From: Dethiobacter alkaliphilus
GTDB lineage: Bacteria; Bacillota; Dethiobacteria; DTU022; UBA8154
DNA length: 64,000 bases
NCBI GenBank assembly: GCA_016841605.1
Contig: JAENYV010000004.1
Location: forward strand, 124,001-188,000
Reading direction: 5' to 3'
The notes under the pieces were generated by a model. The model did no database searches. It was given only the letters and a program-made list of their open reading frames with translations, and had not been told where the DNA came from. Both the position numbers and the translations under genes were made by a program. Of the stretch, positions 8,201-62,801 are shown in pieces (the first letter of the stretch is position 1; each line of letters begins with the position of its first letter).

Positions 8201-8545
8201 ATGACCCGGCAAGAAAAAAAATCTTCCGGCGCTGCGTTTAAAGGAAAGCGCCATATCAACGTTACGGTAAACGGACAGCTCTACGAATTGGCAGTAGGAA
8301 CAGGGGCAGGAAAGGTTAATCCAAGCGATACCCTTTCCTTTACGCTCAGGGAGACTCTTGGGCTTACCGCGACAAAAGTATCCTGCGACAGTGGTGCTTG
8401 CGGAGGATGTACCGTGCTCATGGACGGAAGAGCGGTTCTATCATGCATGCTGTTAAAGGATGAAGATTATTCGGAATCTTCTGTTATACACCATCCGTCC
8501 ATGTACGACATGTTCAAATGCGGGTTCATCCTTTCCGTTATCTGA
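8201..8545 (+). pseudogene. Truncated molybdenum-hydroxylase [2Fe-2S] small subunit
   Basis: The first 86 codons are nearly the same as the intact gene at 62802-63338 (same MTRQEKK start and same CDSGACGGC first [2Fe-2S] motif, C62/C67/C70/C82). After SCMLLK the reading departs completely and stops at 114 residues instead of 178. The second [2Fe-2S] domain (CGFC...CRC) is therefore missing, and such a protein could not relay electrons from a molybdenum cofactor. No large subunit follows; instead the convergent gntR gene ends 26 bases away. It is read as a duplication scar, the remnant of the tail of another cassette copy that was joined to copy 1. The ribosome site is preserved, so a short ferredoxin-like peptide might still be made. 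Confidence 0.85.
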
Positions 8546-9765: not shown

Positions 9766-10791
9766 ATGCCAAAAGTTGTTAGCTATTTTCCCAAAGAATT
9801 ATTTGAGAGGAGAAAGGTGGGGATACCTCCCGAGTGGGATGTAAACTTTGCTAAAGATTGGGGAGAAGAGGAGGTCATTGAGGCCTGTAGGGATGCAGAT
9901 TTATTGTTGGTGCCGGCGGCAAACCCGCCAATTACTGCCAAAGTAATCCAAAATATTAACACCATTCGCTTTCTGCAGGTGTTTGGCGCTGGTTTTGATA
10001 AAGTTGATATTGATGCCGCCAGGGAGGTTGAGCTTCCAGTAGCCAATACACCGGGGCAAAATGCCACAACTGTGGCTGAATTTACCATTGGTATGCTTGT
10101 TGCCTTGCAACGGAAAATTTTAATTGGTAAACGGGAGGTGAAAGCCGGCAATCACGAAAGTATTCACCGAGAGTTTATTATAAGCGGATTGAAGGAAATA
10201 AGAGGTGCCACAATAGGGCTGCTGGGTTTGGGAGCTATTGGTCGCCTGGTTGCCCGGATGGCCAACTTTATGGGAGCGAAAGTGAGCTATTATGACCTTT
10301 ATCGTGCAGATAAGAGCATTGAGGAAGAGTTAAAGGTTACTTACTGTTCGTTCGAGGAACTGCTTGCGAATAACGAAGTAATAAGTCTGCATGTTCCCCT
10401 GAATAATCATACACGCGGATTAATATCAAAAGATGAATTTGCGTTAATGCAGCCGGGAACTTTGCTTATTAATACTGCCCGGGGCGAAATTATTGACCAG
10501 GCTGCCCTAGTCGAAGCATTGGAAAGCGGACATCTCGGCGGGGCTGCTGTAGACCACTTTGCACCGGATCCACCGCCAATCGACCATCCTCTCTTGACCT
10601 TATCAGCAGCAGCAAACGACAGATTAATTATCACACCTCATATCGCAGGTGTCACGGCCGGATCTTTTACCCGTATGTTAAAGGATGCTGTGGAAAACCT
10701 GCAGCGTGTGGCAGCAGGGGAAAATCCCAGGTATGTGGTTAACGGTATTGCCCGGGCAAGAAGTCGGGGAGAGAGTCAAAAAGCTTCCTGA
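9766..10791 (+). CDS. D-2-hydroxyacid dehydrogenase, copy 1
   Basis: A 341-residue NAD-dependent D-isomer-specific 2-hydroxyacid dehydrogenase. The Rossmann fingerprint GLLGLGAIGR is at 151-160. Catalytic Arg239 is in NTARG and His292 in TPHIAG. The usual glutamate of the DVFxxEP motif is aspartate here (D268 in HFAPDPP), and the same change occurs in copy 2, so it is a family trait rather than an error. These enzymes interconvert 2-oxo acids and D-2-hydroxy acids. Beside a CoA ligase and 2-hydroxyacyl-CoA-dehydratase-like subunits, a natural role is forming the hydroxy acid that is then activated and dehydrated (inference). It is the first gene of cassette 1, with operator and promoter just upstream and an AAGGAGG ribosome site. 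Confidence 0.9.
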   Translation: MPKVVSYFPKELFERRKVGIPPEWDVNFAKDWGEEEVIEACRDADLLLVPAANPPITAKVIQNINTIRFLQVFGAGFDKVDIDAAREVELPVANTPGQNATTVAEFTIGMLVALQRKILIGKREVKAGNHESIHREFIISGLKEIRGATIGLLGLGAIGRLVARMANFMGAKVSYYDLYRADKSIEEELKVTYCSFEELLANNEVISLHVPLNNHTRGLISKDEFALMQPGTLLINTARGEIIDQAALVEALESGHLGGAAVDHFAPDPPPIDHPLLTLSAAANDRLIITPHIAGVTAGSFTRMLKDAVENLQRVAAGENPRYVVNGIARARSRGESQKAS

Positions 10792-11002: not shown

Positions 11003-12589
11003 ATGACCGTAAGCAAATGGATGCACGTAGGAACGGTTTTGAAGATGAATGCCCTAAATTTTCCTGATAAGTTAGGCTGCCAGGACAAATATAAAAGCTT
11101 TACCTTCAAAGAATGGAATGAGCGGTCTTGCCGTCTGGCCAATGGTTTGCAGGAGATGAGGGTGGGGTACGGCGAGCGGGTTGCCGTTCTATCATACAAC
11201 CGCGTCGAATGGATGGATATTTACTCATCCTGTGCCAAAGGAGGACAAATCGCTGTTCCCATATTATTTCGCCTTGGACCTAACGATTTTGAGTATATAC
11301 TCAATCATGCCGAATGCAAAGCCTTTATAGTGGAAGAACCATTTATCGAAAGCGTTAATAGCATTCGTGATAAACTTAAAACGATACCAGAGGGCAATTT
11401 TATCTACCTGGGGGACGGTAAAGCCCCCGAAGGATACCGGCATTACGAAGACATTTTAAGCGGCAGCTCTCCGGAAGAGCCGGAGGTCATAGTAGATGCC
11501 AAAGACCCCTGGACAATAATGTACACCTCCGGAACAACAGGCAAACCCAAAGGAGTCGTTCGTAACCACGAAAGTAATTTGGCCCAATACCTCCTCAATA
11601 ACATCAACATGGGCGTTTTGCCGACAGATAAGCCTCTACTTGTCATGCCGAGCTGCCACGTCAATTCTGTTTACTATTCCTTCTGCTATACCTATGTTTC
11701 AGCACCGGTAATGATCTATAACTCAGTTAGCTTTGACTCCGAAGACCTGCTAAAAACTATTGAGGAATTCAAACCAACCTTTACCTCCCTTGTTCCAACC
11801 CATTATACTATGCTACTAAGCTTGCCGGACGAGGTAAAGAAGAAATATGACGTTAGCAGCATGAGGCAGCTTCTCATTTCTTCGGCGCCGGCCAGGAAAG
11901 AACTCAAGCTGGCTATTATGGACTATTTTAAGTCGGCAGAACTCTGGGAGGCTTATGGTTCCACCGAAACGGGTTTGATAACCTGCTTACGTCCGGAGGA
12001 TCAGTTCCGCAAGCTGGGATCAGTAGGTAAAGAGATTTTCGGCATTGACGAAATTAAGCTGCTTAATGAAGACGGCAACGAAGTGCCGCAGGGGGAAGTC
12101 GGGGAATTGTACACCAGATCTCCCCTCGTTTTCCAGGAGTACTGGAAAGATTCCGAAAAGACAAAAGAGTCATTCTATGGTGAATGGTGCACTGCCGGCG
12201 ATATGGGGAAAAAGGATGAAGACGGTTATTACTACCTGGTAGATCGCAAGAAAAATATGATTATCACCGGGGGAGAAAATGTCTATCCATCTGAAATTGA
12301 AGAAATTCTTGCCTCTCACCCGGCCATAAAGGATGTTGCTGTGATCGGTATTCCTGATCAGAAATGGGGAGAAGCCATCAAAGCCGTCGTGGTTTTAAAA
12401 CAGGGGTATAAATTCAGCGATGAGATGGGCAGAGAAATCATGGAGTTTACCAAGGGCGGGCTGCCCGGGTTCAAACGTCCCAAGTCCATTGATTTTATCA
12501 GCGATGAAGAAATGCCCAGGACAGCTACCGGTAAAATTCTGCACCGCGTTCTCAGGGAAAAGTACGGAACCTGGAGCGAGGCCAAATAG
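11003..12589 (+). CDS. AMP-forming acyl-CoA ligase, copy 1
   Basis: A 528-residue ANL-superfamily enzyme that activates a carboxylic acid with ATP and CoA. The adenylate P-loop YTSGTTGKPKGV lies near 172-183, the YGSTETG aromatic/adenine motif near 318-324, the hinge DRKKNMIITGGENVYPSE near 415-432 and the C-terminal catalytic lysine in PRTATGKILHRV near 509-520. It begins at ATG 11003 behind ATAGGAGG. It is nearly identical in length and layout to the ligase at 52725-54311. By its cassette position it probably activates the D-2-hydroxy acid made by the neighbouring dehydrogenase, or the aryl acid that starts the pathway; the acid itself cannot be told from sequence. Confidence 0.9.
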   Translation: MTVSKWMHVGTVLKMNALNFPDKLGCQDKYKSFTFKEWNERSCRLANGLQEMRVGYGERVAVLSYNRVEWMDIYSSCAKGGQIAVPILFRLGPNDFEYILNHAECKAFIVEEPFIESVNSIRDKLKTIPEGNFIYLGDGKAPEGYRHYEDILSGSSPEEPEVIVDAKDPWTIMYTSGTTGKPKGVVRNHESNLAQYLLNNINMGVLPTDKPLLVMPSCHVNSVYYSFCYTYVSAPVMIYNSVSFDSEDLLKTIEEFKPTFTSLVPTHYTMLLSLPDEVKKKYDVSSMRQLLISSAPARKELKLAIMDYFKSAELWEAYGSTETGLITCLRPEDQFRKLGSVGKEIFGIDEIKLLNEDGNEVPQGEVGELYTRSPLVFQEYWKDSEKTKESFYGEWCTAGDMGKKDEDGYYYLVDRKKNMIITGGENVYPSEIEEILASHPAIKDVAVIGIPDQKWGEAIKAVVVLKQGYKFSDEMGREIMEFTKGGLPGFKRPKSIDFISDEEMPRTATGKILHRVLREKYGTWSEAK

Positions 12590-12658: not shown

Positions 12659-14416
12659 TTGAAGAAGATGATGACGGGGAACGAAGCGATAGCGTATGGT
12701 GCTTACTTAAACGGGGTACGGGTAGGTGCGGCTTATCCCGGTACGCCCAGCACGGAAATTATGGACAATTTATCCAAATATCAGGGCGTATATGCCGAGT
12801 GGTCTCCCAACGAGAAAGTTGCACTGGATACGGGGACAGGGGCCGCGTATGCCGGTACCAGGGCAATGGTATCCATGAAGCATGTGGGTGTAAATGTTGC
12901 ATCTGACTCGCTTTTTTATGCCGTCTATACCGGACTGAAAGCGGGCCTGGTGATCGTAAGTGCAGACGATCCCGGCATGCACAGTTCCCAAAACGAGCAG
13001 GATAACCGCAACTATGCCAGATTTGCCAAATTACCCATGCTCGAGCCTTCCGACAGCGAGGAAGCCAAGGAATACGTCGGAATCGCCCTGGAGATGAGCG
13101 AAACCTTTGACACACCGGTAATGTTGCGGACAGTAACCCGTATTTCGCACTCATCAACTCCTGTGGAAATTTCGGAAGAGGGTCCACCTGCACCGCCGTC
13201 GGAACCCCCCCTTTATGAAAGAAACCCTCAGAAATTTGTTATGGTCCCGGCTTATGCACGTGGGCGTCACATTGTGGTAGAAGAGCGTATTAAAAAAATT
13301 GCTGAATATGCGGAAAACATCTCTATTAACAGAATTGAGCCCGGTGACGATAACATAGGAATCATTGCAGCCGGTTCAGTATACCAGTATGCGAAGGAAG
13401 TTTTCCCTGAGGCTACCTTTCTCAAACTGGGGATGGTCTATCCTCCGCCCGAAAAGCTTATTCGCGAGTTTGCTTCCCGGGTAAAAATGGTAGTTGCCAT
13501 CGAAGAGCTTGATCCCTTCTTTGAAGGTCAGATCAGGCAGATGGGTATTGAAGTTAGGGGTAAAGACATCTTCCCCATTGTTGGAGAATTTAACCCGGGA
13601 CTCATTCGTCAATGTTCAGTCTCTGCGGGTCTCATTCCGGCTTTCGAGGCTACAGCAGAAGCAGCTGCCGCGGGCACTTCCACTACGGAATTGCCTATTC
13701 GTCCGCCCATGCTTTGTCCGGGTTGCGGTCACCGGGGCATGTTTCACGTTTTCCGTGAGTCTGGGGCACTGGTTTTAGGTGATATCGGATGCTATACGCT
13801 GGGCTCTGCCCCTCCCCTCAGTGCCATGCATACCACCGGATGCATGGGTGCCGGCATCGGTGTTGCCCACGGCATTGACAAGGCCGGCGTAAAAGACCGG
13901 ATCATCGCTGTTATAGGAGACTCTACCTTTTTCCATGCCGGTATTCACCCCCTTATTAATGTACTCTATAACGAAAGCACTGTAACCGTTGTTATTGCCG
14001 ATAACAGTGTAACGGCCATGACAGGTCATCAGCAGCATCCGGGTACCGGGATCACCCTGCAAAAAAAGACTACCAGGGCTGTAAATCCGGAGCAGCTTGT
14101 CCGGAGCCTTGGTTTTGATAAAGTGGACATTTGTGACCCCTATGACCTGGACGGCTTGGCAAAAACCTTAGAAGACCACCTGGGAAGCGGTAAGCCTTCG
14201 GTCATTATAGTCAGGCGTCCCTGCGTCCTTTATACCAGAGAAAAGAGCAAAGCTCCTCAAATAGATCCTGAACTCTGTGTAAACTGTGGCACCTGCCTTG
14301 AGTTGGGCTGTTCACCGCTTATGCAGGCAGAAGATTACGTTACCATCGATCCGATTTTGTGTAACGGATGCGGTCTCTGCATACAGGTATGTCCTGCCGG
14401 GGCCATCAGCAAGTAA
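12659..14416 (+). CDS. iorA: Indolepyruvate:ferredoxin oxidoreductase alpha subunit, copy 1
   Basis: A 585-residue TPP-dependent 2-oxoacid:ferredoxin oxidoreductase subunit of the IOR type. It oxidatively decarboxylates arylpyruvates or similar 2-oxo acids to acyl-CoA and reduces ferredoxin. The N-terminal domain (AYPGTPSTEI near 25-34, then an ASKHVG-like block MKHVGVNVASDSLF) precedes the TPP domain. There GDSTFFHAGIH and ADNSVTAMTGHQQHPGTG (about 420-465) bind TPP and Mg. A C-terminal two-cluster ferredoxin domain carries CVNCGTC, then CNGCGLCIQVCPAGA. The start is TTG at 12659, 8 bases after AAAGGAGGA; copy 2 also uses TTG at the same place. In this cassette it may supply low-potential electrons to the BcrBC-like proteins, or make an arylacetyl-CoA. 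Confidence 0.92.
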   Translation: MKKMMTGNEAIAYGAYLNGVRVGAAYPGTPSTEIMDNLSKYQGVYAEWSPNEKVALDTGTGAAYAGTRAMVSMKHVGVNVASDSLFYAVYTGLKAGLVIVSADDPGMHSSQNEQDNRNYARFAKLPMLEPSDSEEAKEYVGIALEMSETFDTPVMLRTVTRISHSSTPVEISEEGPPAPPSEPPLYERNPQKFVMVPAYARGRHIVVEERIKKIAEYAENISINRIEPGDDNIGIIAAGSVYQYAKEVFPEATFLKLGMVYPPPEKLIREFASRVKMVVAIEELDPFFEGQIRQMGIEVRGKDIFPIVGEFNPGLIRQCSVSAGLIPAFEATAEAAAAGTSTTELPIRPPMLCPGCGHRGMFHVFRESGALVLGDIGCYTLGSAPPLSAMHTTGCMGAGIGVAHGIDKAGVKDRIIAVIGDSTFFHAGIHPLINVLYNESTVTVVIADNSVTAMTGHQQHPGTGITLQKKTTRAVNPEQLVRSLGFDKVDICDPYDLDGLAKTLEDHLGSGKPSVIIVRRPCVLYTREKSKAPQIDPELCVNCGTCLELGCSPLMQAEDYVTIDPILCNGCGLCIQVCPAGAISK

Positions 14417-14477
14417 CTGCTCATAAGTCGTTTGACTAATGAATTTTGAATATTTGAAAGAACAAGGAGGATGCAAG

Positions 14478-15065
14478 GTGAAAAACATTGACATTTTAAT
14501 GGCCGGCGTAGGAGGCCAGGGCACCATTTTGGCCAGCAATATATTGTCGGAAGTAGGTCTGGAATTAGGATATACCGTAAAAAAATCAGAAGTACACGGT
14601 ATGGCCCAGCGGGGAGGTACAGTAGAGAGCCATGTTCGCTGGGGTGATAAAGTCTACGCACCCTTGATTGAGCAGGGACATGCAGACTTCCTTGTGGGCT
14701 TTGAAATGTTGGAAACAGCTCGGTGGCCGTTATATTTAAAAAAGGGTGCTGTTGTGATCGTAAACCGTTACCGGATTCCTCCGCCTGTTGTAAATCTTGG
14801 AAAAGCAAAATACCCCTCCGAACAGGAGATCAAATCCATATTAACATCTGCCGGAGGGCGTGTAATATGGGTTGAAGGAACTCGGATAGCCGAAGAGCTT
14901 GGCAACCCCGCTATGGCTGGGGTAGTTTTATTAGGCGTGCTCTCTAACATGCTGGGCTGTAACGAGGATGCCTGGGTGAAAGTTATTCAGCGTCTGGTTC
15001 CGGAGAAATTTTTAGAGCTGAATAAAAAAGCATTCCTGGCCGGCCGGGCTTTACAAGTAGCGTAA
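14478..15065 (+). CDS. iorB: Indolepyruvate:ferredoxin oxidoreductase beta subunit, copy 1
   Basis: A 195-residue gamma-domain-type subunit (POR_N family) that completes IOR with IorA. It opens with the characteristic DILMAGVGGQGTILASN block and has KKSEVHGMAQRGGTVESHVR near 38-57, the usual IorB signature. An ATG at 14439 exists in frame, but GTG 14478 is preferred. It follows AAGGAGG with good spacing and matches the only start available in copy 2 (56256). It lies 61 bases after iorA and is probably translated from the same transcript. Confidence 0.92.
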   Translation: MKNIDILMAGVGGQGTILASNILSEVGLELGYTVKKSEVHGMAQRGGTVESHVRWGDKVYAPLIEQGHADFLVGFEMLETARWPLYLKKGAVVIVNRYRIPPPVVNLGKAKYPSEQEIKSILTSAGGRVIWVEGTRIAEELGNPAMAGVVLLGVLSNMLGCNEDAWVKVIQRLVPEKFLELNKKAFLAGRALQVA

Positions 15066-15151
15066 TAGTATTCTCTTTTGAAACACAGCTCCTGTTAAAA
15101 GTAAGCGAACCGGCTTCGCTCGATGAGAAATAAGCAGAAAGGAGAGTGCAA

Positions 15152-16306
15152 GTGAATACAGGATTGAACATAGAAGTGCTGGAGTACTTTAATAAAGTAA
15201 CGGAAGATCCCGGTCAGGAAGCCAGGCTGTGGAAAGAGGAAACGGGCGGGAAAGTAATTGGTTTTCTTCTGACCGATGTACCTGAAGAATTGATCCATGC
15301 GGCGGGGTTTTTTCCTTTTGGCATCTCTGGAGGGAAAAGGAGGATGAGTCTGGCTGATGCTCACCTGCAAATATGGACCTGTTCTTATGTTCGCAGCAAC
15401 CTTGCAATGGCCCTTGGAGGAGAGCTCGATTTTTTAGACGGTCTTGTCATCCCCCAAAGATGTGATGAAACCAGAATGGTTATGGGCATCTGGAAACACC
15501 AAAAACCACTTTCTTTCATGGACAATTTTCGTCCTCCCCGGCAGGTGGAGAGGCCCAGCGCTAAAAATTATTATCTTGGAGAACTGAGGAGATTTAAAAA
15601 AAAGCTGGAAGAGTTCCGCGGCTCAGAGATTACCGATGAAGAGCTAAAGCAGAGTATTAGGCTATATAACAGCAATAGAACTCTTCTGGAAAAGCTTTTT
15701 GACCTTCACAGGCAAGATCCGTCCCTGCTTAGCAGCCGGGAACTATACAATATCATCATGGCTTCCATGATCATTTCCAGGAAAAAACTGAACCGGCTTT
15801 TGAACCGGCTACTGGATACCTTAAACCCCAAGCTGCCCGAAGAGACTGATTGCAGGGTAAAAATTTTTATCTCCGGAACATTTCTGGAGCCTTTGGAAAT
15901 TGCCGATTATATTGAGGAAAGCGGCGGAACCATAGTTGGAGACGACCTAAAAAGCGGATCCCGTTACTTTAACGGTAATGTTCCGGAAGAAGGCGACTTT
16001 CTGGAAGGATTTGCCGAAAGACAGATGCAGAAAATGCCTTCGGCAAGTTTTGATACTTCAACAAATCCGAGAAGGCACTTTTTGGTAAATGCTGTCAAAG
16101 AAAAAAATGCAGATGGGGTTCTTCTCCTTCACCTCAAGTACTGTGAACCGGAGAACTTTGATTATTATGATACAAAGCAGGCACTGAAAAAAGCCGGAAT
16201 CCCAGTACAAAAGATCGATACTGAGTTTGGAGAGACTTCACTGGGACAGCTCCGGACAAGAGTACAGGCTTTCATGGAAATGCTGGGGGGTGTGGAACTA
16301 ATATGA
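15152..16306 (+). CDS. BcrC/HgdB-like Fe-S dehydratase/reductase subunit, copy 1
   Basis: A 384-residue member of the 2-hydroxyacyl-CoA dehydratase / class I benzoyl-CoA reductase catalytic-subunit family (HgdB, FldC, BcrC). The C-terminal block LKYCEPENFDYYD...TSLGQLRTRVQAF is diagnostic. Candidate cluster cysteines are C77 (WTCSYVR), C104 (PQRCDETR) and C331 (YCEP). GTG 15152 is chosen over GTG 15146, which would sit on top of the AAAGGAG site, and because copy 2 starts at the matching codon. It overlaps the next gene by 4 bases, so the two subunits are translationally coupled. The partner ATPase activator (HgdC/BcrAD type) is not found in this window. The reaction could be syn-dehydration of a 2-hydroxyacyl-CoA or reduction of an aryl-CoA. 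Confidence 0.87.
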   Translation: MNTGLNIEVLEYFNKVTEDPGQEARLWKEETGGKVIGFLLTDVPEELIHAAGFFPFGISGGKRRMSLADAHLQIWTCSYVRSNLAMALGGELDFLDGLVIPQRCDETRMVMGIWKHQKPLSFMDNFRPPRQVERPSAKNYYLGELRRFKKKLEEFRGSEITDEELKQSIRLYNSNRTLLEKLFDLHRQDPSLLSSRELYNIIMASMIISRKKLNRLLNRLLDTLNPKLPEETDCRVKIFISGTFLEPLEIADYIEESGGTIVGDDLKSGSRYFNGNVPEEGDFLEGFAERQMQKMPSASFDTSTNPRRHFLVNAVKEKNADGVLLLHLKYCEPENFDYYDTKQALKKAGIPVQKIDTEFGETSLGQLRTRVQAFMEMLGGVELI

Positions 16307-17514
16307 GTGAAAAGAAAACCTTCAAAACAGCAGCACTAATGAAAGAACTTATGAAAAAATACTATGAAGATGGTCTCTCTGCCCGAAAATCGGGCATCCC
16401 GGTGGCCTGGGTTACCGCAGTTTCTCCCGTGGAAATTGTCTATGCTGCAGGTTTATTTCCATATTATCCCGAAAACTTCGGAGCCATCGCCGCAGCGAGA
16501 AAAATCGCTGATAAACTTTCTGTTGTAGCCGAATCCAAAGGCTACGCCCACGACCTCTGCGCTTATGCTCGCTGTGGAATCGGGGACGCTTATGCATCCG
16601 AACACCCTGTGGGAGAAATTATTAAGCCGGACCTGTTGCTTTGTTGTAATACGCAATGCGGCAGCCTTCCCAAATGGTTTGAAGTGGCCGGCCGTTTTTA
16701 TAAAGCACCATATTTTCTTCTGGATGCCCCACAGATTGGGGCTGAACCGGAGAATTTGGTCACAAACTATTATTTGGAACAGTTAAAAGAGTTAATCTCC
16801 TTTCTGGAAGAGGTGACCGGAAAACCTTTTGATTATGACCGGTTCGGCGAAGTACTGTACTATTCCAATGAAGCGTGCCGTCTCTGGAACGAAGTACTGG
16901 ATACCGCCGCGCAAAAGCCGGCTCCTTTTGGATTCTTTGATGCCTGTTTCCATATGTTTCCAATTGTAACCATGAGAGGAACAAAAGAGGCTGTAGTTTA
17001 CTATCAAGCTTTAAAAGATGAGGTGGAAGAAAGGATCATAAAGGAAAATTATGCTGTCCCCAACGAACGGTATAAAATCTATTTTGACCATATTCCCCTG
17101 TGGCCTAAACTACGCTGGTTTTCCGACCTTTTTGCCTCCCATGGTGCGCTGATGGCAGTTTCTCTGTATACCCATTCCTGGGCTTATTTCTTTGACCGGA
17201 ATCGTCCCCTGGAAAGTTTGGCCGAACAATATACCCAGGAGTTTGTAAATCGTTTTTTTGATTACAGAATAGAGTTAAAGTTAAGATTAATGCGCAAGTA
17301 TAATGTCGACGGTTTTGTTCTTTTTTCCAACCGAAGTTGTAAGCCGAATGCTATCGGTCTTTATGATAAACGCAATATCATCAGTAGTATGGCAGGGATT
17401 CCCGGTGTGGTTTTTGAAGCGGATATGTCCGATTTGCGGTTTTTTTCCGAAGAGCAGGTTTTGGCCAAACTTGAGCCTTTTTTTGAGCAATTGGAGTCTA
17501 GAGGGAAAAAGTGA
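16303..17514 (+). CDS. BcrB/HgdA-like Fe-S dehydratase/reductase subunit, copy 1
   Basis: A 403-residue second catalytic subunit of the same family. The C-terminal SNRSCKPNAIGLYDKR and PGVVFEADMSDLR blocks resemble BcrB/BadE and FldB. Cysteines C86, C91, C114, C115, C119 and C346 (SNRSC) include the likely [4Fe-4S] ligands. Its start codon overlaps the stop of the preceding gene (ATGA). With that subunit it should form a heterodimer needing a one-electron activating donor. The presence of IorAB immediately upstream recalls Thauera, where a ferredoxin-reducing 2-oxoacid oxidoreductase accompanies benzoyl-CoA reductase. It is followed by a hairpin at 17526-17562. Confidence 0.86.
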   Translation: MSEKKTFKTAALMKELMKKYYEDGLSARKSGIPVAWVTAVSPVEIVYAAGLFPYYPENFGAIAAARKIADKLSVVAESKGYAHDLCAYARCGIGDAYASEHPVGEIIKPDLLLCCNTQCGSLPKWFEVAGRFYKAPYFLLDAPQIGAEPENLVTNYYLEQLKELISFLEEVTGKPFDYDRFGEVLYYSNEACRLWNEVLDTAAQKPAPFGFFDACFHMFPIVTMRGTKEAVVYYQALKDEVEERIIKENYAVPNERYKIYFDHIPLWPKLRWFSDLFASHGALMAVSLYTHSWAYFFDRNRPLESLAEQYTQEFVNRFFDYRIELKLRLMRKYNVDGFVLFSNRSCKPNAIGLYDKRNIISSMAGIPGVVFEADMSDLRFFSEEQVLAKLEPFFEQLESRGKK

Positions 17515-21085: not shown

Positions 21086-22381
21086 ATGGCATTTTTTAAC
21101 GAGCGTTGGGAGACAATGGACCAGGATCAGTTAAAAGAGGTGCAGCTAAAAAAATTTCAAGATCAGGTTCAAAGGATGTATAAAAATTCCTTTTACAAAA
21201 AACGCTTTGAGGAAACCGATATTACACCAGACGATATTAAAAACTGGGAAGATATTAAAAAAGCGCCCTTTACTTACAAAAATGATCTGAGGGAAAATTA
21301 TCCCCTGGGTCTGCTGACCGGAAACTGGGAAGAAGTCGTCCGTGTTCACATGACCTCCGGTACAACTGGGACTCCAACACCTATGGTATATACGCAAAAC
21401 GACGTGAATGTTTGGGCTGAGTGCATGGCGAGAAATTTTATTGCCGGCGGGCTCAAAAAAAGCGATGTTGTTCAACAAGCTCATGGTTTAGGGCTTTTCA
21501 CCGGCGGTCTAGGTTTTCATTACGGGCTTGAGCGTGCCGGTGCAAAGGTTATTCCAACCAGCTCCGGAGGTACCGAACGGCAATTGAGACTGATGCAGGA
21601 GTGGGGTACTACAGTTTTTACGGGAACTCCATCCTATGCTGCATATATTGCGGAGATAGCTATTGAACGGGGTATTGATCCGGTGAAAGATTTGAAATTA
21701 AGGTTAGGGTTTCATGGCGGAGAGCCTGTTTCAGGTGAGTTAAGGCAAAGAATTGATGAAAGAATTGGTTACAAAGCTCATGGTGGGGGCATGAGGACTT
21801 GTTACGGTTTGACGGAGATGGGCGGTCCAATAGGCATGGATTGTGAGAGTACTAATGGCATCCATCTCTGGGGGGATCATTACTTAGTAGAAGTATTGGA
21901 TCCGGAAACTCTGGAAGACGTAGAAGCTGGTAACGCAGGCGAGCTGGTTCTTACCAACCTCAGTTTTGAAGCGATGCCCATTTTACGCTACCGGACGGGT
22001 GATAGGGTTGTCGTAAATTTTGATACCTGTGAATGCGGCCGGACTCACCCACGAATAACCAATTTTCTGGGCCGCGTTGACGATATGCTTCTTGTCAGCG
22101 GGACGAATGTTTTCCCCAGCCAGATTGAATTCGTTCTTCTCCGGCATCCCGGGATGAGTGAAAATTGGCAGCTTGTCGTCGGAGATAACAGAGGACTGCA
22201 TACGCTAAAAGTAGAAGTTGAGCCAGTCCAGGGGGCGCAGATCGATAACGCCTTTGTAAAAGAACTGGAAAAAGAACTGCACAGTCACCTGGAGATTACA
22301 TGTAAAGTGGATATAAAACCGATCGGCACTCTCCCAAGGTTCGAGGGGAAAGCAGTCAGGGTAAGAGACGAGCGTATCTAG
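21086..22381 (+). CDS. Phenylacetate-CoA ligase-like (PaaK family) AMP ligase
   Basis: A 431-residue short ANL ligase of the PaaK type, which lacks the long N-terminal domain of ordinary acyl-CoA synthetases. Motifs: TSGTTGTPTPMVYTQND near 91-107, CYGLTEMGG near 240-248, RYRTGDRV near 303-310, GRVDDMLLVSGTNVFPSQIE near 328-347 and the C-terminal GKAVRV with the catalytic lysine position. ATG 21086 follows GGGAGGG. A rho-independent-type hairpin follows (22486-22526). PaaK-type enzymes activate phenylacetate, benzoate-type acids and, in some anaerobes, isophthalate or phthalate. Placed between a TRAP transporter and a UbiD decarboxylase, an aromatic carboxylate or dicarboxylate is the likely substrate (inference). 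Confidence 0.9.
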   Translation: MAFFNERWETMDQDQLKEVQLKKFQDQVQRMYKNSFYKKRFEETDITPDDIKNWEDIKKAPFTYKNDLRENYPLGLLTGNWEEVVRVHMTSGTTGTPTPMVYTQNDVNVWAECMARNFIAGGLKKSDVVQQAHGLGLFTGGLGFHYGLERAGAKVIPTSSGGTERQLRLMQEWGTTVFTGTPSYAAYIAEIAIERGIDPVKDLKLRLGFHGGEPVSGELRQRIDERIGYKAHGGGMRTCYGLTEMGGPIGMDCESTNGIHLWGDHYLVEVLDPETLEDVEAGNAGELVLTNLSFEAMPILRYRTGDRVVVNFDTCECGRTHPRITNFLGRVDDMLLVSGTNVFPSQIEFVLLRHPGMSENWQLVVGDNRGLHTLKVEVEPVQGAQIDNAFVKELEKELHSHLEITCKVDIKPIGTLPRFEGKAVRVRDERI

Positions 22382-23065: not shown

Positions 23066-23091
23066 AAAACAAATTTGAGGAGGTTTTGATA

Positions 23092-24606
23092 ATGAATATG
23101 AAAAAAGACGTAAGAAGTGTGAGGAGCGCCCTTGAGTATCTTGACAACAAAGGTGAAGTTATCCATGTGACAAAAGAAGTTGATCCGATCCTTGAGATAT
23201 CCGGTATTCAGAAGGCGCTTGACGGCGGACCGGCAATTCTTTTTGAAAAGATTAAAGGTTTCCCGAATTTTCGCAATGTAGGCAATATTTTGAGCCGCAG
23301 AGAGACAATCGCTGACCTGTATGATGAAGACGACACGAAACAGTTAAAGTTTAGATTTAAGGATGCCCTGAATAAACCGCTACCGCCGAAGGTAGTCGAT
23401 GAGGCTCCGTGCCAGGAGGTCGTAATTACCGACAACATTGACGCGTTGGCAACACTGCCTATAATCCAGCACGGTCCGAAGGACGTAGGACGCATACTCG
23501 GTGGAGGCATTAACCTGCTCATGGGGAAGTTTTTTGGTGAGGGGAGCAATGTTTCGTTCAACAGGACACACTTTCGGGGTAAGGACTGGGCATCCCAATC
23601 CCACGCTCAGATAACCCATATCGGAATGATTATGTCCAAAACCAACCGGGACGATAGAATACCTGTCACGGTCAACATTAACCCGCCGCTGTCGGTACAG
23701 ATGGTAGCCGGGGCTTGGAACGTGCGCACTTTAGTACCTCATGGTGCTGACGAGCTTGGTATAGCCGGCGCCTTCCAGCGTTCGCCGATAGAAATCGTGA
23801 AGGCGAAAACAGTAGATACCTATGCTATCGCCAACTCGGAAATCGTCCTTGAAGGCTATTACGAACCAAGCAGCCAGAACGTATGGGAAAGCGATGCCGC
23901 GGAGGAGTTAGGAAAGCAGACGGTATTACCTTTCTTCCCGGAATGGGAAGGCTACCTCGGCAGGTCATGGATAGTTCGCAAGTTGCAGGTAACCGCAATA
24001 ACATACCGCAAAGACAAACCCATCTTCCACACCGCAATGGCCCGCGGCTTTGAGTATGCCGGGTATGATATCCTGCGGGAGGCTGAAATAATAGAGATGG
24101 CTGACAGGCTTGCCCCGGGTATCCTGGTCGATTGTTTTGTACCTATCTGCATGCAGTGGGGCGGCGGTATGTACCTCCAGTTCCGGAAAGCAAGGCCGCA
24201 AGAGGAAGGATTCCAGCGTAATATTCTGATGGCCGCCCTTGCCAATTGTCCGGGAATGCGGTTGGTTGTCGGCGTCGATGAGGATGTAGATATCTATAAT
24301 GCTGATGATATAATGTGGGCGATTGAAAGCAGGGTAGACCCTGATAAAGATATAATGAGCCTGCCCAGGGGACAGAGAGGCATAGCTGCACAGCCTATGG
24401 AGGTAAAGGAACGCGGCGTTGGCGGTTGGGAGGGCGGCATTGCCATTGATGCTACCAAACCGTTCAACGATATCTGGAAGTTCGAGCGTGGTCACTACCC
24501 TTCAGATATGGTCGACCTCAAGAAGTGGCTGACAGACGAGCAGATCGCAAAGGTTCAGTTGCAGCAGTCCGAGTACGCCAGGCTCTGCAGTAAAAGAGGT
24601 TGGTGA
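23092..24606 (+). CDS. ubiD: UbiD-family (prenyl-FMN) decarboxylase
   Basis: A 504-residue member of the UbiD superfamily, which uses prenylated FMN to (de)carboxylate aromatic or alpha,beta-unsaturated acids. The length and the overall run (VGNILSRRETIADLY, LGGGINLLMGKFFGEGSNVS, VVGVDEDVDIYNADDIMWAI and the C-terminal LPRGQRG...DATKP block) are characteristic. The start is placed at ATG 23092, 8 bases after TGAGGAGG, rather than at the in-frame TTG 23086. It heads a tightly spaced six-gene operon. No intact UbiX (which makes the cofactor) is present; a decayed ubiX lies at 30.3 kb. After a PaaK-like ligase, an aryl-CoA or aromatic-acid decarboxylation is likely, as for isophthaloyl- or phthaloyl-CoA decarboxylases (inference). 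Confidence 0.92.
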   Translation: MNMKKDVRSVRSALEYLDNKGEVIHVTKEVDPILEISGIQKALDGGPAILFEKIKGFPNFRNVGNILSRRETIADLYDEDDTKQLKFRFKDALNKPLPPKVVDEAPCQEVVITDNIDALATLPIIQHGPKDVGRILGGGINLLMGKFFGEGSNVSFNRTHFRGKDWASQSHAQITHIGMIMSKTNRDDRIPVTVNINPPLSVQMVAGAWNVRTLVPHGADELGIAGAFQRSPIEIVKAKTVDTYAIANSEIVLEGYYEPSSQNVWESDAAEELGKQTVLPFFPEWEGYLGRSWIVRKLQVTAITYRKDKPIFHTAMARGFEYAGYDILREAEIIEMADRLAPGILVDCFVPICMQWGGGMYLQFRKARPQEEGFQRNILMAALANCPGMRLVVGVDEDVDIYNADDIMWAIESRVDPDKDIMSLPRGQRGIAAQPMEVKERGVGGWEGGIAIDATKPFNDIWKFERGHYPSDMVDLKKWLTDEQIAKVQLQQSEYARLCSKRGW

Positions 24607-24607
24607 T

Positions 24608-25816
24608 ATGGGTGCTCTAGAGGGTATAAGGGTTCTCGATTTATCCCGCTTCCAGTCAGGACCGGTGTGCGGAATGATGCTTGGCGACATGGGAGCAGAA
24701 GTAATCAGGGTTGAAGAATTAGATGGGGCCCCGGATAGACACTGGGGCCTTACCGGCCCGGATGGAGAAACCCTTTCATACAAAGTTGCCGGGCGAAGCA
24801 GAAAAGCTATGACGTTGAAGTTTAATAGCGAAGAAGGAAAAGAGATATTCAGAGAGCTTGTAAAAAAAGCTGATGTTGTTCTCCATAACTTTACGCCGGG
24901 TGCCCCCTTTACAGAGGAGTTGAAGTACGACGTTTTAAAGAAGCTGAATGAGAAAATAATAGTTGCGGCAATTTCCGGGTTCGGTCAGAATGGACCGGAT
25001 CGAGAGCTTGTGTGTTTTGATCATGTCGCACAGGCAAGGTCGGGCAGTTTGCTACTTACCGGATTCCCCGGTGATCCGCCTCTGAAAGCAACCATCACAA
25101 GCAACGACATGATGACGGGACTATTTGCCGCCATTGGTATTTTGACCGCACTTTATGAGAGGCAAAGAACAGGTGTGGGGCAGTTTATTGATGCATCCCT
25201 TTTTGATACTTCATTTTTCTGTAGCCAGTTGATGGGTGCCCTCATACTCTACGATGTTTACGGGGAAGTAAGAATACAGGTCGGAAATCTCGGCTTCCAT
25301 GCTTATATCGGAATATTTGAGACAATGGATAAGGAATGGGTCTTAATTTCAGGGGCAACGAACAATATCTGGAGAAGATTGGCGAGGTCGATAGGAAGAG
25401 AGGATATGGTATCTGACCCGAGGTTTGCAAAAAATGATATGGTGAGATTTGAAAACGCGAAGCTAATAGATGTCGCCATCGGAGAATGGGCCGGGCAGAA
25501 AACCGCCGAAGACATCATAAAAACATTGCAAGCGGTGCGGGTGCCTTGCAGCATAGTCAATACCATAGACAGGTTGAAAAAGGACCCTCAGGTAGAGGCA
25601 CGGGAGATGATTCAATACGTTGAGGACCCCGGGGTCGGAACAATTCCCCTGCCCAATTTCCCTTTTAAGATGTCGCGCACTCCAGGAGCAATTACTTCAC
25701 GTGCTCCCCTTGTGGGTGAACATGATGAGGAAATATACTGCGGGCTACTCGGTTACAGCGAGAGTAAATTGGAGGAGCTTCGCAATAAAGGCATAATAAA
25801 AAAGCCTGAAAAATAA
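24608..25816 (+). CDS. Class III (CaiB/BaiF) CoA-transferase
   Basis: A 402-residue formyl-CoA-transferase-type enzyme that moves CoA between carboxylic acids. The N-terminal LEGIRVLDLSRFQSGPVCGM block and VLHNFTPGAPF near 91-101 are family features. The catalytic aspartate is most likely D167 in SNDMMTGL. It starts one base after the ubiD stop, so the two are co-translated. In benzylsuccinate-type pathways class III transferases exchange succinyl-CoA for the substrate; here a single gene rather than a pair is present. The CoA donor and acceptor are not identifiable. Confidence 0.92.
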   Translation: MGALEGIRVLDLSRFQSGPVCGMMLGDMGAEVIRVEELDGAPDRHWGLTGPDGETLSYKVAGRSRKAMTLKFNSEEGKEIFRELVKKADVVLHNFTPGAPFTEELKYDVLKKLNEKIIVAAISGFGQNGPDRELVCFDHVAQARSGSLLLTGFPGDPPLKATITSNDMMTGLFAAIGILTALYERQRTGVGQFIDASLFDTSFFCSQLMGALILYDVYGEVRIQVGNLGFHAYIGIFETMDKEWVLISGATNNIWRRLARSIGREDMVSDPRFAKNDMVRFENAKLIDVAIGEWAGQKTAEDIIKTLQAVRVPCSIVNTIDRLKKDPQVEAREMIQYVEDPGVGTIPLPNFPFKMSRTPGAITSRAPLVGEHDEEIYCGLLGYSESKLEELRNKGIIKKPEK

Positions 25817-28487: not shown

Positions 28488-29258
28488 ATGGCACTTCATT
28501 ATACAAAAGAAGGTCACGTCGCGATTTTCACCATTGACAGACCTGAGGCGAGGAATGCATTCAATACGCAAATGCTGGAAGATTTTAGCAGGACAATGAT
28601 GGATTTCCGCGACGATCCTGATTTGTGGGTAGGTATCATCACCGGCACAGGAGAAGAAGCGTTCTGCGGAGGCACTGATGCAAAAGAAAGGTTACCTATT
28701 CTCAGGAAACATAGAGGTAACCCCGACGTTACTCCTCCGAATCCTTTGCGTGGTTTTGAACTGTTTAAACCGCTTATTGCCGCTGTAAACGGACTGGCCA
28801 TGGGAATGGGTACCGAGATTGTCCTTGCCTGCGATATCCGGGTTGCCTCAGAAAAAGCCCGTTTTGGTTTGACGGAGGTGACACTGGGCCTTATGCCGGG
28901 ACAAGGCGGAGCCACACGGCTACCCCGCATGATTCCCTGGTGCAGGGCAGCAGAGATGATACTTACCGGTGCAGTCATAGATGCCCGGAAGGCAGAGCAC
29001 TACAATCTGATAAACGAAGTTGTCACGCCCGGAGAGCTGATGTCGGCAGCGAGGAAATGGGGGGAGCGTATCTGCAAGGCCGCGCCGCTGGCAGTAAAAT
29101 CAGCAAAGGAAAACATGAGCAGGAGTCTCAACATGAGTTTAAGCGACGGATTGCGTCTGGAAAGCACCCTGGTGAGTTTTCTTGTAGGTTCGGAGGATTT
29201 TGCCGAGGGTATTAGAGCTTTTGGAGAGAAACGTAAACCTGAATACAAAGGTAAATAA
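28488..29258 (+). CDS. Enoyl-CoA hydratase/isomerase family protein
   Basis: A 256-residue crotonase-fold protein. The oxyanion-hole regions are AFCGGTDAKE near 62-71 and the GLAMGMGTE segment. The catalytic glutamates of classical hydratases are represented by E in FGLTEVTLG and by E in RAAEMILTG, so hydratase activity is plausible. It lies in the middle of the ubiD operon, 21 bases after the thiolase, with AGGAGG before the ATG. It hydrates an alpha,beta-unsaturated acyl-CoA for the dehydrogenase that follows. Other crotonase reactions (isomerase, hydrolase) cannot be excluded. Confidence 0.9.
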   Translation: MALHYTKEGHVAIFTIDRPEARNAFNTQMLEDFSRTMMDFRDDPDLWVGIITGTGEEAFCGGTDAKERLPILRKHRGNPDVTPPNPLRGFELFKPLIAAVNGLAMGMGTEIVLACDIRVASEKARFGLTEVTLGLMPGQGGATRLPRMIPWCRAAEMILTGAVIDARKAEHYNLINEVVTPGELMSAARKWGERICKAAPLAVKSAKENMSRSLNMSLSDGLRLESTLVSFLVGSEDFAEGIRAFGEKRKPEYKGK

Positions 29259-29277: not shown

Positions 29278-30192
29278 ATGGCAGACAATAGAGAAATAAA
29301 AAAAGTTGGAGTAGTGGGATGTGGAACGATGGGATCGGGCATTGTCCAGGTATGTGCGCAAAATGGTTATGAGACAATTGTGTCCGAGGCAAACGAAGAC
29401 ATTTTAAAAAAGGGATTGGCAAAGATAGATGCGTTTCTAACAAAGGGACTGGAGAGAGGTAAGGTTACTCAACAGGAAAAAGAGTCTACTCTTGGCCGCA
29501 TTAAAGCCGCCGGCAGCATGAACGATCTTTCCGATTGCGATTTGGTGATCGAAGCCGTGAACGAGAATATTGATTTAAAAAGGAAAATATTTGCACAACT
29601 GGACGAGATTTGCTCTGATCATACATTGTTGTGCACAAATACATCAAATTTGTGCATTATGGAGATAACACAGGGGCTGAAAAAAGCGGAAAAAGCTCTT
29701 GGTCTCCATTTTTTTAACCCGGTCCCTCTCATGAAGCTGGTGGAGATTGCCCCGTCCATAGTTACCGCCAGTGATACCGTAAAAGCAATAATAAACTTCA
29801 TCAAATCCATAGGTAAGGAGTATGTGGTAGTCAAAGACACTCCTGGTTTTATCGTAAATCGTTTAAATTCACCCTATACACTAAATGCCATTCGCCTGTT
29901 CGAGAATGGGATTGCCTCGATAGAAGACATTGATAAGGCCGTAAAATTAGGTCTTAATTTTCCCATGGGACCCTTTGAATTAATGGATTTTGGCGGACTT
30001 GACATGATGTATGTTTCTGTGAAAGGACGTTATGAAGAACTCCTGGAGCCGCAGTATTCGGCGCCCGTACTTCTTAAAAGGATGGTATTGGCTGGGCGTT
30101 TGGGCCGGAAAGTGGGCAAGGGTTGGTATGAATATAACGAAAAAGGGGAGAAGATCGGCGTTTTGAAGACGACAAAGGACATCGAGGGCTAA
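29278..30192 (+). CDS. 3-hydroxyacyl-CoA dehydrogenase
   Basis: A 304-residue monofunctional NAD-dependent 3-hydroxyacyl-CoA dehydrogenase (PaaH/Hbd family, normally about 280-300). The Rossmann loop VGVVGCGTMGSGIVQV is near 11-26, the catalytic histidine in LHFFNPVPLMKLVEI near 143-157, and DTPGFIVNRL near 183-192. The C-terminal domain has MGPFELMDFGGLD. It is the last intact gene of the ubiD operon; a decayed ubiD fragment begins immediately after its stop codon. Confidence 0.93.
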   Translation: MADNREIKKVGVVGCGTMGSGIVQVCAQNGYETIVSEANEDILKKGLAKIDAFLTKGLERGKVTQQEKESTLGRIKAAGSMNDLSDCDLVIEAVNENIDLKRKIFAQLDEICSDHTLLCTNTSNLCIMEITQGLKKAEKALGLHFFNPVPLMKLVEIAPSIVTASDTVKAIINFIKSIGKEYVVVKDTPGFIVNRLNSPYTLNAIRLFENGIASIEDIDKAVKLGLNFPMGPFELMDFGGLDMMYVSVKGRYEELLEPQYSAPVLLKRMVLAGRLGRKVGKGWYEYNEKGEKIGVLKTTKDIEG

Positions 30193-51689: not shown

Positions 51690-52700
51690 ATGCCAAGAGT
51701 TGTTAGTTTTTATCCGCTGGAATTATTTAAAAGGGACAAAGTGGAGATTCCTTCCGGGTGGGATTTTCTTTTTGCAAAGGACCGCGGAGAAAAAGAGATT
51801 ATTGAGGCTTGCAAAGGAGCGGATTTCTTGCTTGTTACAGCGGCAAATCCACCTATTACAGCGCTAATTATTCAAAATATTGACTCTATATGCTTGCTGC
51901 AGGTGTTCGGGGCCGGTTTTGATAAAATCGATATCGATGCCGCAAGGGAAGTTAATCTTCCTGTAGCCAATACTCCAGGTCAAAATGCCACTACTGTGGC
52001 TGAATTTACCATCGGGGCGCTCGTTGCTCTTCAACGAAAAATTTTCATCGGCAACCGGGAGGTCAAAGCCGGAAACCATTATGCTATTGAGCAACATTTT
52101 ATAAGAAGTGGGCTGAAGGAAATAAGAGGCGCCGCAATCGGGCTACTGGGCCTGGGAGCTATAGGACGCTTGGTTGCCGGACTGGCTAATTTTATGGGCG
52201 CCAAAGTGAGCTATTATGACCCATACCGTGTAGACAAAAGTATGGAGGAAAAATTAAATGTTACTTACTGTTCGTTTGAGGAATTGCTTTCCAATAACGA
52301 AGTAATTAGCCTGCATGTTCCCCTGAATAAAGATACCCGCGGATTAATATCAAAAGATGAACTTGCTTTAATGCAGCCGGGAGCTTTGCTTATCAATACT
52401 GCCCGAGGCGAAATCGTTGATCAGGACGCCCTCGCAGAAGCATTGGAAAGCGGACATCTCGGCGGGGCTGCTGTGGACCATTTTTCACCGGATCCCCCAC
52501 CCGCGGACCACCCTCTCTTAACCTTATCGGAAGCAGCAAATGAAAGATTAATTGTCACATCTCACATAGCAGGTGTCACCGCCGGCTCTTTTGCCCGTAT
52601 GCTGAAGATGTCTGTGGAAAACCTGCAGCGTGTGGCAGCAGGGGAAGATCCCAGGTGTGTAGTTAACGGTATCACCCGGGCTAGATTCTCAAAGAACTAA
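51690..52700 (+). CDS. D-2-hydroxyacid dehydrogenase, copy 2
   Basis: A 336-residue counterpart of 9766-10791, collinear except at the C-terminus. GLLGLGAIGR is at 151-160, catalytic Arg239 in NTARG, Asp268 in place of the usual Glu (HFSPDPP), and His292 in TSHIAG, where copy 1 has TPHIAG. It has no separate operator between it and gntR2, so it probably shares the 50788 promoter. Reduction of an arylpyruvate-type 2-oxo acid, or oxidation of the hydroxy acid, is the likely reaction. Confidence 0.9.
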   Translation: MPRVVSFYPLELFKRDKVEIPSGWDFLFAKDRGEKEIIEACKGADFLLVTAANPPITALIIQNIDSICLLQVFGAGFDKIDIDAAREVNLPVANTPGQNATTVAEFTIGALVALQRKIFIGNREVKAGNHYAIEQHFIRSGLKEIRGAAIGLLGLGAIGRLVAGLANFMGAKVSYYDPYRVDKSMEEKLNVTYCSFEELLSNNEVISLHVPLNKDTRGLISKDELALMQPGALLINTARGEIVDQDALAEALESGHLGGAAVDHFSPDPPPADHPLLTLSEAANERLIVTSHIAGVTAGSFARMLKMSVENLQRVAAGEDPRCVVNGITRARFSKN

Positions 52701-54311: not shown

Positions 54312-54402
54312 AGCTACAGCGCATTTGATACAAAAAGATGAAAAGACTTTGGAATTGTTCCCATGGCTTAGCCGAAAAAGAAATTTCTAAGGAGGGATAA
54401 CA

Positions 54403-56163: not shown

Positions 56164-56255
56164 CTGCAGGACATTTCGAAAAGTATATCCCCGGATATTT
56201 TGAATTCTAACTACTGAATCTTGAAGACCTGAAAAGAAACGAGGAGGCATGCAGG

Positions 56256-56843
56256 GTGAAAAAAGTAGACATTTTAATGGCTGGAGTTGGAGGCCAGGGC
56301 ACCATTCTGGCAAGTAACATACTGGCGGAAGTAGGTCTGGAACTGGGATATGATGTAAAAAAATCCGAAGTTCACGGTATGGCCCAGCGAGGGGGTACAG
56401 TAGAGAGCCATGTGCGCTGGGGCGAGAAAGTCTATGCCCCGCTGGTGGAACAGGGACATGCGGACTACCTTATAGGCTTTGAGATGTTGGAAACGGCTCG
56501 CTGGCCCGGATATTTAAAAGAAGGTACCGTTGTGATCATAAACCGTTACCGGATTCCTCCGCCGGCTGTAAACCTCGGTAAAGCAAAATATCCCTCCGAG
56601 CAGGAGATTGAGGCCTTGTTAAAAGGTGCCGGAGGGCGTGTAATTTGGATTGAAGGAACCGGGATAGCAGGGGAACTCGGCAACCCCGCCATGGTTGGAG
56701 TAGTTTTGTTGGGTGCACTCTCCAACCTGTTGGGTGGTGAAGAGGAAACCTGGCTTAAAGTAATCCAGCGTCTGGTACCCGAGAAATTTTTAGAGTTGAA
56801 TAAGAAAGCATTTCTCTCCGGTAAAGCTTTGCAAGTAGCGTAA
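56256..56843 (+). CDS. iorB: Indolepyruvate:ferredoxin oxidoreductase beta subunit, copy 2
   Basis: 195 residues, beginning at GTG 56256 after GAGGAGG. It contains the DILMAGVGGQGTILASN opening and the KKSEVHGMAQRGGTVESHVR block. The start fixes the corresponding start in copy 1. It is the glycine-rich gamma-type subunit that docks onto IorA; it carries no Fe-S motif of its own. It is followed after 64 bases by the BcrC-like gene. Confidence 0.92.
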   Translation: MKKVDILMAGVGGQGTILASNILAEVGLELGYDVKKSEVHGMAQRGGTVESHVRWGEKVYAPLVEQGHADYLIGFEMLETARWPGYLKEGTVVIINRYRIPPPAVNLGKAKYPSEQEIEALLKGAGGRVIWIEGTGIAGELGNPAMVGVVLLGALSNLLGGEEETWLKVIQRLVPEKFLELNKKAFLSGKALQVA

Positions 56844-56907
56844 AAGTATTCTCTCCTGAATATAGCCCTTTGTTGGAGCTGATTTACAAGTAGAAAGGAG
56901 GGAGCAA

Positions 56908-60980: not shown

Positions 60981-61015
60981 CACTACAGAAAACTTCAATA
61001 GGAGGTTACGGGCAA

Positions 61016-61873: not shown

Positions 61874-61888
61874 CAAGGAGTGAAAGAA

Positions 61889-62714: not shown

Positions 62715-62801
62715 GAAATTCTTTGAACTTTACCCCACTCTAATAAGACTTTGAGAAGATCAAAAGTGCCGGCAAGAGCCGGCGAAAGAGAGGAGAAAAA
62801 G

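Follow-up and report, generated by a model that had tools for sequence, protein, structure and literature searches.

Two gene cassettes in a 64,000-nucleotide stretch of Dethiobacter alkaliphilus (hereafter the window; contig JAENYV010000004.1, positions 124,001–188,000, our G000 C13:124001–188000 in a source genome of 4.07 Mb that is 98% complete) each combine IorAB, an indolepyruvate:ferredoxin oxidoreductase (IOR), with the HGD-D beta and alpha subunits of an oxygen-sensitive, iron-sulfur radical enzyme of the benzoyl-CoA reductase (BCR)/2-hydroxyacyl-CoA dehydratase (HAD) family (hereafter the pair). We favor, with a probability of about 0.7, the reading that the pair is a HAD-type radical dehydratase, activated in trans, on a route from a (probably aromatic) 2-oxoacid through 2-hydroxyacyl-CoA and enoyl-CoA to aroyl-CoA, with IOR as an oxidative branch. 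Because an ATP-driven activator is encoded elsewhere in the genome, the system most likely represents an already known enzyme type whose genes are unusually arranged, not a novel energy mechanism; the unusual feature is a HAD-like pair whose activator (BzdPQ or HgdC) is unlinked and apparently exchangeable. The analysis places a clade of the BCR/HAD family that is widespread in aromatic-degrading anaerobic Bacillota, and cautions that “no activator” should not be inferred from one operon.

Cassette architecture and the catalytic pair

Both cassettes consist of genes for an AMP-forming acyl-CoA ligase (AMP-ligase), IorA, IorB, HGD-D beta, and HGD-D alpha, with a 2-hydroxyacid dehydrogenase gene upstream of each (Table 1). 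An earlier, sequence-only reading of positions 12659–17514 had assigned the four genes from IorA to alpha correctly; all four are intact open reading frames with matching profiles (IorA passes the equivalog test for IOR alpha, at 679.6 bits against a cut-off of 650.9), and IorAB does precede the pair in both cassettes. The short gaps (IorA–IorB 22 bp and IorB–beta 80 bp in cassette 1, 22–92 bp across both cassettes) and the 4-bp overlap of the beta and alpha genes give the cassettes an operon-like character. Cassette 2 (52725–59270) is 89% identical to cassette 1 in alpha, 82% in beta, and 85% in IorA, and judged by these identities the two are a duplication. Among the 43 loci of the alpha clade, IorA lies next to the pair at 37/43, spanning several bacterial families, and the IOR/HGD-D pairing is therefore beyond chance; a literature search turned up no report of an IOR–HAD gene association.

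Table 1. Features of the window discussed in the text
Feature	Position	Strand	Profile matches and remarks
2-hydroxyacid dehydrogenase, D-isomer-specific family, cassette 1	9766–10791	+	PF02826 E=1e-52; PF00389 E=3e-22
AMP-forming acyl-CoA ligase, cassette 1	11003–12589	+	PF00501 E=3e-77; under all specific NCBIfam cut-offs
IorA (indolepyruvate:ferredoxin oxidoreductase alpha), cassette 1	12659–14416	+	TIGR03336 679.6 bits (cut-off 650.9)
IorB, cassette 1	14439–15065	+	NF005322 237.8 bits (cut-off 237); PF01558
HGD-D beta, HadC-like, cassette 1	15146–16306	+	PF06050 E=7e-85; cluster Cys 79, 106, 333
HGD-D alpha, HadB-like, cassette 1	16303–17514	+	PF06050 E=2.5e-73; cluster Cys 86, 119, 346; Glu57
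PaaK-like arylacetate/aryl-CoA ligase	21086–22381	+	TIGR02155 381 bits (cut-off 646); 85% identity to the copy adjoining BzdPQ on C8
Enoyl-CoA hydratase, downstream of cassette 1	28488–29258	+	
3-hydroxyacyl-CoA dehydrogenase, downstream of cassette 1	29278–30192	+	
2-hydroxyacid dehydrogenase family, cassette 2	51690–52700	+	TIGR01327 190 bits, below cut-off; D-2-hydroxyacid dehydrogenase models
AMP-forming acyl-CoA ligase, cassette 2	52725–54311	+	
IorA, cassette 2	54403–56163	+	85% identity to cassette 1 copy
IorB, cassette 2	56256–56843	+	84% identity to cassette 1 copy
HGD-D beta, cassette 2	56908–58062	+	PF06050 E=2e-80
HGD-D alpha, cassette 2	58059–59270	+	PF06050 E=1.5e-74
Thiolase	59326–60498	+	first gene of the run directly 3′ of cassette 2 (59326–62668)
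OB-fold partner of thiolase	60498–60980	+	same run
3-hydroxyacyl-CoA dehydrogenase	61016–61873	+	same run
Enoyl-CoA hydratase	61880–62668	+	same run

The pair was compared with HadBC, BzdNO, MbdNO, the double-cubane cluster protein (DCCP), and homologues from a plasmid collection, using AlphaFold single-chain models (pLDDT 89.7 and 91.9) and a residue comparison of 63 alpha and 54 beta clade members referenced to the BzdNO structure (PMC11971306). The top match for both subunits, in fold and in profile, is HadBC of the (R)-2-hydroxyisocaproyl-CoA dehydratase HadBC/HadI (Clostridioides difficile, PDB 3O3M): the alpha model lies closest to HadB (3o3m_A, template modeling (TM) score 0.92/0.93, rmsd 1.9; MbdO and BzdO 0.88) and the beta model to HadC (3o3m_D, TM 0.91/0.94), the latter with BzdN almost level (TM 0.90; phmmer 187.7 vs 186.2 bits). 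The best NCBIfam models are again HadB for alpha (250.2 bits, cut-off 750) and HadC for beta (228.9 bits, cut-off 700), and PF06050 falls on both products of the overlapping genes, as in the alpha–beta pair of HAD component D. Alpha Cys86, Cys119, and Cys346, conserved together with Glu57 in 63/63 members, are the predicted ligands of a three-cysteine, open-site [4Fe-4S] cluster; beta keeps the equivalents of BzdN Cys73, Cys100, and Cys327 in 54/54, the three-cysteine pattern of HADs. The pair shares with HadBC both cluster sites and a nearby 2-hydroxyacid dehydrogenase and CoA activation, and differs in being only ~30% identical, in its reversed subunit order, in an AMP-ligase that replaces the CoA-transferase, in an activator outside the operon, and in its linkage to IorAB and beta-oxidation genes.

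A BZD-type double-cubane reductase was rejected because cysteines of the double cubane are missing from beta and BzdO residues from alpha. BzdNOPQ, the BZD-type class I BCR (PDB 8S02), belongs to the same superfamily and shares the catalytic [4Fe-4S] cysteines and Glu65; the pair, unlike BzdNO, has lost three of the six cysteines of the [8Fe-9S] double cubane in beta (the Cys36 equivalent in 54/54, those of Cys263 and Cys293 in most members, the window included) and carries in alpha an invariant Leu at BzdO His131 and a HadB-like, likewise invariant Trp at BzdO Leu302. Another HGD-D pair of the same genome, on contig C26, has all six cysteines. DCCP, a homodimer with six cysteines per subunit, fits no better (NF040772, 189.5 and 52 bits, cut-off 350). 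A sister clade (L141–L175), mostly deltaproteobacterial, combines a beta with all six double-cubane cysteines (32/33) with a HadB-like alpha (Ser37 and Trp302 equivalents) and, in most cases, one HgdC; one example (L167:8646–12029) has a GlcD-like and an Fe-S protein 3′ of the enzyme genes. Such an enzyme, of BZD type in beta and of HAD type in alpha, is not described in the literature consulted.

Activators in the source genome and its relatives

The absence of an activator from both cassettes, as the sequence-only reading had stated, extends to the whole window: a whole-genome PF01869 search places no BadF/BcrA/HgdC-type ATPase within it, the closest match being an activase-like protein of ~1440 aa some 6–10 kb before its start. 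That reading had taken the absence to mark a new low-potential enzyme system and had suggested searching the rest of the genome for HgdC/BcrA-type ATPases; the search returns intact activators on three other contigs (BzdPQ on C8, PQ on C26, and HgdC on C3), and the claim of a new system is not supported. The heterodimeric BzdP/BzdQ-type pair at C8:120 kb (BzdQ 430.9 bits, equivalog cut-off 380.2) retains the two cluster-cysteine motifs in both subunits (NDKCAAG/NEKCAAG and CVVFA.SE) and lies in the run amidohydrolase–IorA–IorB–AMP-ligase–PaaK–BzdP–BzdQ–Dch–Had (Had 481 bits, equivalog cut-off 339), which includes a third IorAB and benzoyl-CoA pathway genes and has no HGD-D pair; tblastn between amidohydrolase and IorA detected no remnant of one (E>0.2). 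C26 encodes a complete BzdNOPQ-like operon with its own BzdNO-like pair beside PQ, and on C3 HgdC adjoins a double-cubane protein (504.9 bits, cut-off 350). An ATP-dependent ASKHA activator of the kind HADs use is therefore available in trans in this genome, and adjacent in clade-mates.

Two side observations concern these loci. The ~1440-aa proteins carry two BadF/BcrA domains each (L019:7775–12109 on C13, before the window; L020:7984–12291 on C19). The C26 operon (L016, 38.6–42.7 kb) is of BZD type, with six cysteines and His131, stands beside a TRAP transporter and an AMP-ligase, and coexists in the genome with three class II BamB genes.

Among the relatives, an HgdC-type activator sits between AMP-ligase and beta in L130 and twice in L150 (TIGR00241 248–265 bits, cut-off 125), and 3′ of alpha in L138. 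The alphas of L130 and L138 fall inside the window's alpha clade (support 100/100); those of L150 are 65–66% identical to the window alpha, within a gene order (2-hydroxyacid dehydrogenase, ligase, beta, alpha) that is that of the window. In a further arrangement, a single contig of G014 (C84) reads 2-hydroxyacid dehydrogenase–beta–alpha–IorA–IorB–AMP-ligase and, further on, PaaK–BzdP–BzdQ–Dch–Had; L110 and L113 hold the pair and BzdPQ inside some 7 kb (in L113 it is BzdQ, where the contig ends), and G006 and G022 are similarly arranged. The C8 operon of the source genome therefore resembles this joint locus minus the pair, which is missing there and duplicated on C13. A dedicated activator beside HgdB-type genes that cluster with these, which the sequence-only reading had named as evidence that would overturn it, is what L130, L150, and L138 contain, with BzdPQ in the locus in L110, L113, and C84 of G014.

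The distribution across genomes points the same way. Of 59 relatives, 12 have a C8-type BzdQ, and 12/12 of these also have the pair (p=2e-6, ignoring shared ancestry). G015 and G017 each contain no HGD-D genes other than the two of the pair and no activator matches other than BzdP and BzdQ. Nine other genomes have the pair without C8-type BzdPQ, each with an HgdC-type activator that has no HGD-D neighbor; G045, G055, and G057 contain no HGD-D set besides the pair, together with one orphan HgdC. Catalytic pair and activator have apparently been uncoupled and exchanged, so that the activator is variously an HgdC next to the pair, BzdPQ within its locus or on a different contig, or an HgdC standing alone. 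Separated components have precedents in the bzdNOPQ genes of Desulfotomaculum gibsoniae (PMC4148979) and in fldABC lacking fldI in Peptostreptococcus stomatis (PMC8710772). In both orphan cases examined (L178, G045:C90; L180, G057:C47), the gene lies in a clpX–lon–ysxC neighborhood without a nearby HGD-D gene. L079 and L081 have an AorABC-like cluster (FAD, tungsten aldehyde oxidoreductase, and Fe-S subunits) directly after Dch–Had, in contrast to genomes with BzdPQ ahead of Dch; the tungsten enzyme of L081 was rejected as a class II BCR, since aldehyde oxidoreductases match it far better than BamB.

A proposed dehydratase route and its alternatives

From the genes and their order, the cluster-ligand pattern, the predicted fold, the presence of activators, and the conservation of the locus we infer the reaction, its substrate and direction, and the serving activator as follows. 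The 2-hydroxyacid dehydrogenase, which would interconvert 2-oxoacid and 2-hydroxyacid, may reduce a (probably aromatic) 2-oxoacid, and the AMP-ligase would form the 2-hydroxyacyl-CoA. The pair, as the putative catalytic component (component D), would dehydrate this to the enoyl-CoA via a ketyl radical at the alpha [4Fe-4S] cluster, after ATP-driven one-electron activation by an ASKHA protein whose gene lies elsewhere; the BzdP/BzdQ-type pair on C8 is the most likely candidate. Hydratase, 3-hydroxyacyl-CoA dehydrogenase, and thiolase would then shorten the enoyl-CoA to aroyl-CoA and acetyl-CoA, feeding benzoyl-CoA degradation; hydratase, 3-hydroxyacyl-CoA dehydrogenase, and thiolase–OB genes beside the pair are what an enoyl-CoA-forming dehydration leads one to expect. 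IorAB would oxidize the starting 2-oxoacid to arylacetyl-CoA and in doing so reduce ferredoxin. Such joint oxidative and reductive branches are the known Stickland logic of aromatic 2-oxoacids (PMC11574389), and as HADs recycle their electron (PMC11971306), IOR is not required as a stoichiometric ferredoxin source.

The phenyllactyl-CoA dehydratase FldBC/FldI of Clostridium sporogenes offers a likeness of route: like the proposed chain, it acts on an aryl-2-hydroxyacid and is paired with oxidation of the arylpyruvate. The last step of the Fld pathway is a reduction catalyzed by an acyl-CoA dehydrogenase, whereas here thiolytic shortening is proposed. Of the two routes offered by the sequence-only reading, the aryl-lactate type with IOR as oxidative branch is the better supported, while a mechanism free of any activator is disfavored.

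The substrate is probably aromatic and delivered to the benzoyl-CoA pathway. Alpha-clade loci contain a 2-hydroxyacid dehydrogenase in 32/43 and a PaaK-like ligase in 15/43 cases, and the pair occurs in 23/25 relatives with class II BamB vs 1/34 without (p=5e-13, again ignoring shared ancestry), a co-occurrence from which an aromatic substrate is the natural inference; one of the three BamB genes of the source genome scores 1165 bits against the BamB of PDB 4Z3W.

Several points weigh against the dehydratase reading. Ala replaces HadB Ser37 throughout the clade (63/63), and the active site is therefore not identical to that of HadB; we know of no requirement for Ser37 in all HADs. The clade has no characterized member and its scores lie far under the HadB/HadC equivalog cut-offs, most relatives have a 2-hydroxyacid dehydrogenase with just 27–30% identity to the window copy, the argument by elimination is built on draft genomes, the association p-values take no account of shared ancestry, and BzdPQ adjoins Dch and Had genes, suggesting ring reduction. 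In the solved 3-methylbenzoyl-CoA reductase (MBR), MbdN likewise retains just three of the six cysteines, and His131 is absent from MbdO; the ligand pattern consequently rules out the BZD type only, and neither the six cysteines (as sole, decisive feature) nor His131 was retained as a BCR-versus-HAD discriminator.

These last points bear most on the strongest competitor, distinctly less probable than the dehydratase, in which the pair and BzdPQ form a class I aryl-CoA reductase (a new MBR-like subtype with three-cysteine beta) and IorAB supplies ferredoxin as KorAB does in Thauera. It is supported by relatives in which one locus unites the pair with BzdPQ, Dch, Had, and Oah, the last two scoring above equivalog cut-offs, by G015 and G017, where BzdPQ has no other HGD-D partner, and by Desulfotomaculum gibsoniae, whose bzdNOPQ genes lie outside a single transcriptional unit (PMC4148979). 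MbdONPQ itself (Thauera chlorobenzoica, PDB 9G87/9GAI) shares the three-cysteine beta and a heterodimeric activator, yet it is less similar than HadBC in fold and sequence (alpha TM 0.88 vs 0.92, 131 vs 203 bits). To our knowledge, it has no IOR/2-hydroxyacid link. The reductase is further disfavored by the Trp at the Leu302 position of alpha, by class II BamB in nearly all these genomes (beside the BZD-type C26 set in the source genome), by window cassettes that stand among ordinary beta-oxidation genes rather than Dch/Had, and by the nine relatives that have the pair but no C8-type BzdPQ and carry just one HgdC-type activator, at another place in the genome. Taken together, ligands, fold, and downstream genes point to a dehydratase. 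Should the dehydratase-like pair indeed be driven by the reductase-type heterodimeric activator, it would test the fit between activator and component.

An improbable variant runs IOR in reverse: a PaaK-like ligase would convert arylacetate to arylacetyl-CoA, IorAB would carboxylate it reductively to arylpyruvate, and reduction, ligation, HAD dehydration, and thiolysis would yield aroyl-CoA and acetyl-CoA, a CO2-fixing chain elongation that would lead from arylacetates to intermediates of benzoyl-CoA type. This would explain the recurrence of the PaaK-like ligase with IorAB and the pair, but its cost of four ATP equivalents plus reduced ferredoxin argues against it. Slightly less credible still is a dehydratase of aliphatic (branched-chain or lactoyl-type) 2-hydroxyacyl-CoA with aromatic genes as chance neighbors: the closest characterized relative does use 2-hydroxyisocaproyl-CoA, and ligases and 2-hydroxyacid dehydrogenase are not diagnostic of substrate, but the IorA equivalog score, the PaaK loci, and the BamB co-occurrence oppose it. 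That IOR-reduced ferredoxin suffices without any ATP-dependent activator, as the empty window and the adjacency of IorAB might suggest, is very improbable, since clade-mates carry activators in the locus or next to the pair and the genomes examined contain them; HAD clusters with fldABC and no fldI have precedent (PMC8710772, PMC11574389), and that of Peptostreptococcus stomatis shows lower product and no alternative mechanism (PMC8710772).

Other genes of the window

The gene families directly 3′ of cassette 2 also flank the pair in L123, L126, and L129 (the enoyl-CoA hydratase being absent from L123). Ahead of cassette 1, a 2Fe-2S protein of XdhC type (114 aa, 8201–8545) seems to be left over from the duplication of the cassettes; an intact 195-aa copy follows cassette 2 (62751–63338), with Mo-subunit genes beyond the window end (L092). 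The aromatic gene island also includes a UbiD-family decarboxylase followed by a class III CoA-transferase (23086–25816).

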